IMG/VR virus record: IMGVR_UViG_3300030329_002678
Coordinates: 614 to 33,716 of that record
DNA: 33,103 bases
Reading direction: 5' to 3' (one strand)
Source: a virus
Shown: positions 7,681 through 13,486 of the stretch, piece by piece
Position numbering within the stretch: the stretch's first letter is position 1
How the letters are laid out: each line of letters starts with the position of its first letter
Translations under genes and position numbers: made by a program
The notes under the pieces: model-generated
Seen by the model: the letters and a program-made list of their open reading frames with translations, nothing else
What the model was told of the DNA's origin: nothing
The model's database searches: none

Positions 7681-8015
7681 TTCTCCCACTTGTCTTTACA
7701 TACCAACAAAGAAATTACGCTATAGTTAGCTAAATCTAAAAAAGAATCTTCTAACGACTCGTTCTTCGCTTTAAACCCTGTGGTCAACAAGTTGTCTACA
7801 CGACACAGCTTGTCGTTGCTTCTAAACCATATACCTGTAAGTGATTTTGTTTTGTGCTCTTTTTTAGACAGGTCTCTACCTAATGATATGTTGGTTGGGC
7901 CGTAGTCATGTTGTTTCTCACAGAAGGTGGTATACATCTGGTTTAATATATCTTTAAATGCGGCCGTTGTCTCAGGATATTTATTTTCACAAAACTCTAT
8001 AGACTTATTTTTCAT
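7677..8015 (-). CDS. Nucleotide modification associated domain 1 (Nmad1/DUF1599-like) protein
   Basis: 112 aa. The signature KQHDYGPTNISLGRDLS, the GIWFRSNDKLCRVDNLL block and DSFLDLANYSVISLL fit the Nmad1/DUF1599 family, small helical proteins seen in phages and often near nucleotide-modification genes. It overlaps groEL by 11 nt upstream and groES by 4 nt downstream, so the three are one translation-coupled unit. Biochemical role of the family is not established; an all-alpha NTP pyrophosphohydrolase-like fold has been suggested by analogy. Confidence 0.8.
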   Translation of the reverse strand: MKNKSIEFCENKYPETTAAFKDILNQMYTTFCEKQHDYGPTNISLGRDLSKKEHKTKSLTGIWFRSNDKLCRVDNLLTTGFKAKNESLEDSFLDLANYSVISLLVCKDKWEK

Positions 8016-9603
8016 GGCGCGCTAATGTTATGATTGCGTTGGTAGATAAAATTGTAGTGGCTACAGACACTGCGTTACGCAACGCTTTTTTGGTAACCTT
8101 TAACGGGTCAACGATACCGAGCTCAAACATGTCTCCATATACATCAAGCTTCACGTCATACCCTCCCGAGTCAATAATGTCATTTGTCATCTCAGAAGGA
8201 TTTTTCCCTGCGTTTATAAGAATCTGAAAAAACGGTTCTTGTAGCGCCTGAGATAATATCTCTACACCTAAGCGGTGGTCAATATTTTTTTCATCGGGCT
8301 TATCGCCATACGCGTCAGCTACACGGAAAAGAGCTAGCCCTCCTCCTGGTAAGATCCCTTCCTCCAGTGCGGAACGCACTGCGCACACCGCGTCATCGAC
8401 GCGGTCAAATTTTTCTTTCTGCTCTACATCACTGTTTGCTCCTACATAAATGACACCTATACCTCCTGTCAGTCCAGCAATACGTTGCAACACAAACTCT
8501 CTGTCGTCAGCTTGTTTGGTTGTCTTATGCTGTTCCCACAACTCTTTCACTCTGTCTTTCAGCTGGTCGTCGTTATTTTTGTCTTTAATAATAATGGTTG
8601 AGTCTCTTCCCACAATAACTTTCTTTGCTTTACCTAAGTCTTCAATACGCATGTGACTTAAATCATCACCTGTCTTCTCAGAAAAATAGGTAGCCCCTAC
8701 CGCTAGCGCGATATCGCTCATCAGCTCGTGTTGTTTGTATCCAAACTGAGGAGGAATAATACTGCATATCTGCAAATTGTTTTTCATCACGTTGGCAGCG
8801 AGGGTATTAATTAAGTTTTGTGTACACGTTCCAATAATTAAAAGCTTATGGTTGTTATTGATAATAGGCTTTAAAACGTTTTCAATAGATAAAATATTGT
8901 TTATCTCTTGGTCTGCTACTAAAATGTGTACGTCTTCTAATATACACTCGTCTTTCTTTTGGTTGTTTACAAACAAAGGAGAGCTGTAACCTCTATCGAT
9001 CTTCATTCCGTTTGTTACATCGTAATATGTGTTTGCATCGTCAGACTTCTCTACCGTCACTATCCCGTTCTTCCCCACCTTTTGGTATGTCTCACTTATA
9101 ATTGATCCTATATCGCTGTCATTATTACAAGATATAGTAGCTACGTCTAGTAGTCGTTTTTTTGTAAGTTTTTTTGTTTGTTTTGTAAGGGCTTGTATTA
9201 CCTTCTCTGTCTCTTTTTTTATGTATTTTATCACCTCAGTGCTGTTATGAGAACCAGTTAGCTTCTTCATCCCCTTCTTCACGATGGCTTCAGTAAGCAC
9301 AATAGCTGTCGTTGTGCCGTCACCAGCTTGTGACGCTGTCCTGTCGGCTGCTCCCCTCATCATTTGAACGGCTAAGTTCTCAACAGCATCTTTTAGCTTC
9401 ACCGCTTTGGCTACGGTCACGCCGTCTTTTGTTACTGTTATCCCATGTGTGTGTGATGGCGACTCAATAAGCACGGTCTGTCCTCTAGGCCCTAGTGTGC
9501 TTTTGACTGCTTTGGCTATAGTAGATATTCCTTGAATAAGTTTATCTCTACCTTGATCATCAAAACATAAGTCTCGATGAAGAGTTGGTTGTATTTGATT
9601 CAT
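8005..9603 (-). CDS. groEL: GroEL-type chaperonin, phage-encoded
   Basis: 532 aa, near the bacterial length (about 548). Equatorial ATP site: STLGPRG (35-41), TKDGVTVA (58-65) and AGDGTTTA (93-100, Asp95 equivalent to Asp87 of E. coli). RVDDAVCAVRSALEEG and GGG follow, with the catalytic Asp present (equivalent of Asp398). The Gly/Met-rich C-terminal tail of host GroEL is absent; it ends ITLARHEK. The N-terminus has an extra segment of about 8 residues. With its own GroES it probably forms a complete folding machine for virion proteins. A TATCTTTG promoter element lies 16 nt upstream. Confidence 0.95.
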   Translation of the reverse strand: MNQIQPTLHRDLCFDDQGRDKLIQGISTIAKAVKSTLGPRGQTVLIESPSHTHGITVTKDGVTVAKAVKLKDAVENLAVQMMRGAADRTASQAGDGTTTAIVLTEAIVKKGMKKLTGSHNSTEVIKYIKKETEKVIQALTKQTKKLTKKRLLDVATISCNNDSDIGSIISETYQKVGKNGIVTVEKSDDANTYYDVTNGMKIDRGYSSPLFVNNQKKDECILEDVHILVADQEINNILSIENVLKPIINNNHKLLIIGTCTQNLINTLAANVMKNNLQICSIIPPQFGYKQHELMSDIALAVGATYFSEKTGDDLSHMRIEDLGKAKKVIVGRDSTIIIKDKNNDDQLKDRVKELWEQHKTTKQADDREFVLQRIAGLTGGIGVIYVGANSDVEQKEKFDRVDDAVCAVRSALEEGILPGGGLALFRVADAYGDKPDEKNIDHRLGVEILSQALQEPFFQILINAGKNPSEMTNDIIDSGGYDVKLDVYGDMFELGIVDPLKVTKKALRNAVSVATTILSTNAIITLARHEK

Positions 9604-12526: not shown

Positions 12527-12754
12527 ATGAAAAAATACTATTTACCACTACTAAAAGAACAAAAACAAAGAGGAGTTTATTTTTCCTCTACGTTGTCGCC
12601 TTACTCATTTGAAACAATAGACACAGTAAGGCATGAAATAACTAATAAAGAATATAAAGAAGATTATCAAAAGGCAGAAAAAAAAGAAAGATTGTTAAAG
12701 CAAGATAGTTTTTTTAATAATTCTCATTTTAAATATAATATAATAAGACAATGA
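12527..12754 (+). CDS. Hypothetical protein, 75 aa
   Basis: MKKYYLPLLKEQKQRGVYFS, a short Ser/Thr-rich stretch and a Lys/Glu-rich helix. The leader TTAAATTAAAACAACT is typical of this arm. No family recognised. It overlaps the next small membrane ORF by 4 nt, so the two are translated together. Confidence 0.65.
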   Translation: MKKYYLPLLKEQKQRGVYFSSTLSPYSFETIDTVRHEITNKEYKEDYQKAEKKERLLKQDSFFNNSHFKYNIIRQ

Positions 12755-12846
12755 AAAACACAAAGGAAATAATAATAGATATAATATTTTTAATATCTGC
12801 ATTTGGTTTGCTATGGTTTACAATGGTTACTAAATGGGGATTTTAA
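12751..12846 (+). CDS. 31-aa single-pass membrane peptide
   Basis: MKNTKEIIIDIIFLISAFGL, then LWFTMVTKWGF: a charged N-terminus and one membrane helix of about 20 residues. Starts in an ATGA overlap with the preceding gene. Its stop directly abuts the structured RNA region. Too short for family assignment. Confidence 0.6.
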   Translation: MKNTKEIIIDIIFLISAFGLLWFTMVTKWGF

Positions 12847-12856
12847 AAAGTCTTAT

Positions 12857-12926
12857 AATAGTTAGTGCGACAAGTATAAAAAAACTATGTGCATGGAATT
12901 GTCCGAGAAATAACACACTAACTATT
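12857..12926 (+). ncRNA. Structured RNA element closed by an 11-bp perfect stem
   Basis: AATAGTTAGTG (12857-12867) pairs perfectly with CACTAACTATT (12916-12926). Inside, CGACAA (12868-12873) can pair with TTGTC plus G12905 (12899-12905), leaving a 25-nt A-rich apical part and an asymmetric right strand (CGAGAAATAACA). The element lies in the gap between genes ending at 12846 and starting at 13019 and immediately precedes the hammerhead-like fold. I do not recognise it as a known riboswitch. Confidence 0.6.
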
Positions 12927-13000
12927 TTAAAGTCTAATTGATAAGGATTTAATATCCGAAACCTAGAGATAAAAATCTAGGTCTTAGACAAATATTAAAC
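12926..13000 (+). ncRNA. Hammerhead-type ribozyme, variant core (U3-A8), putative
   Basis: Stem I GTCTAA (12932-12937)/TTAGAC (12984-12989), extended after an internal loop by TTTAA/TTAAA (12926-12930/12995-12999). Seven-nt core TTGATAA (12938-12944), where CTGANGA is usual. Stem II GGAT/ATCC (12945-12948/12954-12957), loop TTAAT. GAA (12958-12960). Stem III ACCTAGA/TCTAGGT (12961-12967/12976-12982). C12983 is the expected cleavage residue. All spacings match a type I hammerhead. The only core deviations, C3 to U and G8 to A, are the two residues that pair with each other, so pairing is kept. Cleavage would leave a 35-nt leader on the gene at 13019. Confidence 0.72.
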
Positions 13001-13014
13001 AATTAAATAAATAA
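12997..13014 (+). repeat. Recurrent start leader AAACAATTAAATAAATAA, copy 1
   Basis: An 18-nt leader element ending 4 nt before the ATG at 13019. Near-identical copies precede the starts at 13505, 13621, 14142, 14520 and 15558. A 29-nt stretch here (12988-13016) is repeated exactly at 14111-14139. Confidence 0.8.
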
Positions 13015-13018
13015 AATT

Positions 13019-13486
13019 ATGGGATTAGATATGTATTTAACAAAAAAAATGTATGTTAAAAATTGGAAACATACACCTCAGGATAAGAGGTCAAAAGTAG
13101 TCGCAACAATAGGTAATAAAAAGATTGATACAAGTAAAATTGTAAATCTTGAATTTGAAGCAGGTTATTGGAGAAAAGCAAACGCAATACATAATTGGTT
13201 TGTTACAAACGTACAAAATGGAAATGATGATTGTGGGGAATATTATGTAGATCTTGCACAATTAAAAGATCTTAAAAGTTTATGTAAACATATTTTACAT
13301 AATCATAAAAGGGGAAACAAAAACCTATTAGATAAATTTTGTAAAGACCTTATGCCTACAAAGGAAGGATTCTTTTTTGGAACTACCGATTATGACGATT
13401 ATTTCTTTGGCAGTCTTAAACAAACAATAGAACAATTAGATAATTTAGATGACAAAGGAGAATATTATTATAAATCAAGTTGGTAA
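13019..13486 (+). CDS. Conserved phage/bacterial protein of unknown function (MGLDMYL family), 155 aa
   Basis: MGLDMYLTKKMYV, EAGYWRKANAIHNWFVTNVQ, NGNDDCGEYYVD and the C-terminal GFFFGTTDYDDYFFGSLKQT make up a pattern found in many phages and some bacteria. The conserved Trp/His/Cys/Tyr residues suggest a defined pocket, but no function is known to me. Its leader contains the hammerhead-like RNA and the recurrent AAACAATTAAATAAATAA element. Confidence 0.82.
   Translation: MGLDMYLTKKMYVKNWKHTPQDKRSKVVATIGNKKIDTSKIVNLEFEAGYWRKANAIHNWFVTNVQNGNDDCGEYYVDLAQLKDLKSLCKHILHNHKRGNKNLLDKFCKDLMPTKEGFFFGTTDYDDYFFGSLKQTIEQLDNLDDKGEYYYKSSW

Follow-up and report, generated by a model that had tools for sequence, protein, structure and literature searches.

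The window analysed here is a 33,103-nucleotide stretch of viral DNA (positions 614 to 33,716 of IMG/VR record IMGVR_UViG_3300030329_002678). Its gene plan is that of a podophage near the Flavobacterium genus Elemovirus, with genes for GroEL, a primase and a Sak-type annealing protein; the phage-encoded GroEL lies at 8005-9603 on the minus strand (PHROG 5725, E = 1.4e-137). A predicted type I hammerhead ribozyme lies between a short ORF and a gene of unknown function, with the following features, all on the plus strand:

12751-12846, +: short ORF upstream of the hammerhead
12853-12930, +: separate structured RNA with 15-nt arms and 48 nt between them, not part of the hammerhead
12931, +: conserved A immediately 5' of stem I, from counts of flanking bases
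12932-12989, +: predicted type I hammerhead, all elements present
12932-12937, +: 5' strand of stem I, GUCUAA (DNA GTCTAA), from the fold; 100% of cells paired across 147 distinct relatives
12938-12944, +: core U3 U4 G5 A6 U7 A8 A9 (DNA TTGATAA), from alignment to covariance model R1
12945-12957, +: stem II, GGAU/AUCC (DNA GGAT 12945-12948, ATCC 12954-12957), from the fold and covariation
between GGAT and ATCC, +: stem II loop UUAAU (DNA TTAAT), from loop counts in relatives
12958-12960, +: G12 A13 A14 (GAA), unchanged in all 150 model hits
12961-12982, +: stem III hairpin, A15.1 first and U16.1 last, from the fold
12961-12967 and 12976-12982, +: stem III strands ACCTAGA and TCTAGGT, from sequence and fold
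12983, +: C17, the base after which cleavage is predicted
12984-12989, +: 3' strand of stem I, UUAGAC (DNA TTAGAC), from the fold and covariation
12984-13018, +: 35-nt leader, the expected downstream cleavage product, which would carry a 5'-OH given the predicted cleavage position
13019-13486, +: downstream gene, 155 aa, PHROG 7971 (E = 4.4e-8), function unknown, widespread in environmental viruses

Fold of the element and its absence from Rfam results

A sequence-only reading of this DNA had proposed the three-stem hammerhead plan; all of its letters are present, and folding 12926-13000 gives precisely the hammerhead three-way junction as the minimum-energy structure, at -16.8 kcal/mol compared with a mean of -8.06 kcal/mol for shuffled sequences (z = -3.4). 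The junction persists in a 264-nt fold, and an equilibrium model gives stem I a pairing probability of 0.24-0.34 in a very long transcript. From 5' to 3' the elements are stem I, core, stem II, GAA, stem III, H17 and stem I again, and the structure is open at stem I, which makes it type I; G12 A13 A14, the A15.1-U16.1 and G10.1-C11.1 pairs, and an H17 other than G are likewise as expected for this type. No ORF of at least 40 aa overlaps the hammerhead. A relaxed-core descriptor, in which positions 3 and 8 were free and the stems had at least 6, 4 and 6 pairs, matched none of 300 dinucleotide-shuffled versions of the window.

One part of the proposed structure did not survive. An outer stem I segment had been drawn between TTTAA (12926-12930) and TTAAA (12995-12999), for which the pairing probability is about 0.02 or less; positions 12926-12930 fall in the 3' arm of the upstream hairpin rather than in a hammerhead outer stem. 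The relatives also lack this segment and conserve unpaired A flanks instead, and we rejected it. The arms of the upstream RNA (12853-12930) are 93% complementary and the RNA lies one base upstream of the hammerhead; it has 98.9% identity to a sequence in contig L117, a near-identical phage, and we found no other relative of it.

It had also been claimed that standard searches requiring CUGANGA would miss the element. Rfam reported nothing in the window, and searching around the site up to an E-value of 10 returned only a weak microRNA model and no hammerhead. Hammerhead_1 (RF00163) had no match in the whole record, the window remaining below its gathering score of 34 bits or more, and the RAGATH-1 hammerhead (RF03152; 56.3 bits or more) had no match in the window. 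Searching phage records at the nucleotide level with this region likewise gave no match. Canonical phage members likewise fall under the Rfam cut-offs, with none reported at the 13 loci tested, so that Rfam-based annotation passes over such predicted mRNA-processing sites in phages.

A phage hammerhead family with a covarying core pair

Covariance model R1 was built from 60 canonical phage hammerheads only, with the window sequence and the U3-A8 members excluded. Scored with R1, positions 12932-12989 reach 49.9 bits (E = 3.6e-14), the runner-up elsewhere in the window has 11.3 bits, and the other U3-A8 copies are found at 48-57 bits. The pair formed by positions 3 and 8 is C-G in 144 of 150 model hits and U-A in six, with no other combination. 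The window core thus departs from the strict letter form CUGANGA, with U3-A8, an accepted variation, in place of C3-G8; the Watson-Crick pair is kept, as are U4, G5, A6 and A9. The compensated core claimed from the sequence is upheld by the relatives, since none of the six variants alters one of the two positions without the other. U4, G5, A6, A9, G12, A13, A14 and U16.1 are invariant in the 150 hits, position 17 is C in 139 and A in 11, and A15.1-U16.1 is found in all 147 distinct relatives.

The stems and the core pair covary in about 150 relatives. Changes on both sides of a pair are found for all six pairs of stem I, three of the four in stem II, the core pair and five of the six in stem III, and the covariation score is 0.85, compared with 0.157 for shuffles and at most 0.115 for slid controls; the alignment consists of matches aligned to the model, which biases these counts toward the structure, with the core pair lying outside the model. 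The pairing is not a product of how matches were selected, because unfiltered pattern matches also show the three stems. A canonical-core pattern with no pairing requirement found at least 125 distinct sites, with all three stems in 100 among the matches listed; the equivalent U3-A8 pattern found at least 98 distinct sites, with stem II paired in five and all three stems in the same five. Run on species genomes of bacteria and archaea (84,980 in all), the U3-A8 pattern gave four matches, none with three stems.

Two pattern scans of viral contigs, combined with a pairing filter, identified at least 167 distinct hammerheads in at least 97 contigs. Up to seven occur per contig, and the window record has one. 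The family plan is a 6-bp stem I with conserved A flanks, a 4-bp stem II, a stem III that varies and a GAAAC...GUC motif; most members have UYAAU as the loop of stem II, to which the UUAAU of the window conforms. Among the matches listed for 167 relatives, the base is A at position -1 of stem I in 93%, at +1 in 96% and at +2 in 76%, and the window has all three (A12931, A12990 and A12991). This arrangement suggests that the flank As, rather than an outer stem, may meet loop II as a tertiary contact.

The family has a marked position relative to genes. On the sense strand, 132 of the 167 hammerheads are followed within 60 nt by an ATG-started ORF, compared with 12 of the 167 on the antisense side, and the median distance from hammerhead to start is 21 nt when all start codons found are considered (both among the matches listed). 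Such a sense-strand position near start codons fits a part acting in mRNA just ahead of the start codon. Contigs L267, L354, L247 and L326 carry arrays of about four to seven hammerheads between small genes, with stem I often common to the copies within a contig.

Early-region copies and a replacement in a near-twin

The early-gene leader setting proposed for the window copy recurs in its relatives. In contigs L008 and L041, homologues of the gene at 13019 are preceded, at a distance of about 20 nt, by canonical CUGAUGA hammerheads; contig L335 has two canonical copies between groEL and primase; the early region of L237 has one U3-A8 copy and one with a canonical core. The early regions of two cultured Flavobacterium phages each contain one copy, a canonical hammerhead in elemoB and one with a canonical core in elemoF, and neither record has a ribozyme annotation. 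In elemoB (MT497068.1; L397:5997-6054), the CDS is annotated as starting at L397:6035, within stem III of the hammerhead, and an in-frame ATG at L397:6077, 22 nt past the ribozyme, is the likelier start. The elemoF copy (NC_055853.1; L399:16045-16102, minus strand) has an intact core and two mismatches in stem II, and on this basis is a natural candidate for an inactive hammerhead.

Coding sequence and ribozyme overlap in two contigs: in L335 the stop codon of the upstream gene (L335:7031-7033) is the TGA of the hammerhead core, and in L237 the upstream gene also stops inside a hammerhead (L237:4683-4746). Pelagibacter phage HTVC019P (KC465901.1; L398:2948-3008) has an unannotated canonical hammerhead upstream of genes for a MarR-like regulator, an integrase and an RNA polymerase, and other Pelagibacter phages have matches similar to it. 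A weak match in Vibrio phage PJ32 is not a hammerhead.

The downstream gene is often found without the element. In the close relatives L122 and L123 the gene is present without a hammerhead, and most of a wide set of relatives of the gene at 13019 have no hammerhead either, because that gene family extends far beyond this phage group. The hammerhead is thus not essential, being absent from L122 and L123 and lost in the near-twin L117.

The L117 locus shows what can take its place. Positions L117:26-233 match the window at 96-99%, through GTCTAA, and the two sequences are again common at L117:298-307 (TTAGACAAAT), which includes the stem I strand TTAGAC. Between the same stem I strands, 64 different bases (L117:234-297) replace the hammerhead; this insert extends the same stem and folds into another small structure, and a different gene follows. 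Searching the insert against Rfam up to an E-value of 10 gave only implausible weak matches, and two DNA patterns found no second copy in viral contigs. The insert and the hairpin at 12853-12930 have short stretches in common, such as ACAA-GTA-AAAA-CTAT and GAGAAA, but with one sequence of each, alignment lends no support to the idea that they are permuted versions of a single RNA. It is conceivable, and in our judgement unlikely, that the insert is a different self-cleaving ribozyme, such that phages would exchange unrelated ribozymes at one position as interchangeable mRNA-processing parts.

Predicted action, competing explanations and known hammerheads

We conclude that positions 12932-12989 very probably encode a type I hammerhead ribozyme that belongs to a large phage family, and we predict that it self-cleaves. 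Its likely role would be to cut the early mRNA after the predicted cleavage base, C12983. The polycistronic transcript would be severed between C12983 and U12984, leaving the upstream piece, which carries the ORF at 12751-12846 and the hairpin at 12853-12930, with a 2',3'-cyclic phosphate, and giving the gene at 13019 an A/U-rich leader of 35 nt with a 5'-OH. Cleavage would also destroy stem I and detach the ORF and hairpin from the message, and the 5'-OH or the opened leader may alter decay or translation.

The points that weigh against a working ribozyme are the lack of an Rfam hammerhead match, the lower probability of stem I in a very long transcript, and the existence of relatives (L122, L123 and L117) without the element. 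The first of these, together with the low-complexity, A/T-rich nature of the leader, might be taken to mean that the three-way junction arose by chance in intergenic DNA. We consider this extremely improbable: the descriptor had no match in the 300 shuffled windows, the E-value with R1 is 3.6e-14, and near-identical modules are found in unrelated contigs such as L157, which carries three copies between its genes, two of them U3-A8 and one canonical. The R1 score and the relatives refute a chance junction. A different possibility is that the element is a hammerhead by descent whose core has drifted to A/U in an AT-rich phage, so that this copy is a weakened or inactive, decaying module. Consistent with this, U3-A8 members are few (the six among 150 model hits) and are found in AT-rich contigs (28-38% GC), the elemoF copy has its two stem II mismatches, and L117 has lost the ribozyme. 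Nonetheless, positions 3 and 8 change jointly in all six variants, the window copy is otherwise intact in its stems, GAA, C17, loop II and A flanks, and U3-A8 cores are reported to be active (Perreault et al., 2011; PMC3088659); we regard decay as quite unlikely.

Somewhat less unlikely is that the element serves mainly as a movable boundary, with a common stem I enabling genes and leaders to be exchanged by recombination and RNA cleavage being a side effect. When stem I hexamers are compared in pairs, 35% of the pairs from one contig are identical and 3.7% of those from different contigs, and this sharing agrees with exchange of modules by recombination; moreover, the L117 swap falls exactly at GTCTAA and TTAGAC and brings a new downstream gene. 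However, recombination by itself would not demand that very divergent phages preserve the core, the cleavage position and stems II and III, as they do. Exchange at stem I and self-cleavage are compatible rather than mutually exclusive, and we favour a ribozyme that is predicted to cut the early mRNA.

Natural hammerheads in which C3/G8 covary to U3/A8 have been described, and such cores were proven active in vitro (Perreault et al., 2011, PMC3088659, citing Przybilski and Hammann, 2007); several hammerheads also flank genes in prophages (PMC3088659). The novelty initially claimed for the window element is therefore only partly retained: the core variant was reported in 2011 and hammerheads at phage genes were known (PMC3088659), but the claim that they are unreported in this phage group may hold. 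What a phage gains from cutting its own early mRNA was left open by the 2011 survey (PMC3088659), and could be tested during infection with the cultured phages elemoB and elemoF (Flavobacterium strain BAL314). A U3-A8 hammerhead with canonical relatives in the same phage lineage also allows what the core pair does to be compared cleanly between natural sequences.

Among the Rfam families, Hammerhead_1 (RF00163) resembles the phage family in architecture, core, GAA, A15.1-U16.1 and the loop II region, with the L008 copy aligned end to end; it differs in that L008 scores 27.0 bits against the cut-off of 34, and the window copy is unreported. RAGATH-1 (RF03152) is also type I and has the same CUGAUGAG...CGAAAC...GUC plan, with a copy from L247 aligning over the full model, but the score is 29.2 bits against a cut-off of 56.3, and the stem I extension and stem II loop are different. 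Phage and prophage arrays (PMC3088659) similarly have several hammerheads flanking single genes of a phage operon, whereas the window record has one copy. The U3-A8 hammerheads of Perreault et al. (2011; PMC3088659) carry the same double change, described there as a compensatory variation of the core in several natural hammerheads and reported to be active in vitro; the window copy is a member of the type I family with a UYAAU loop from environmental phages. The window element is an additional natural example of this known U3-A8 variant, and its novelty is modest.
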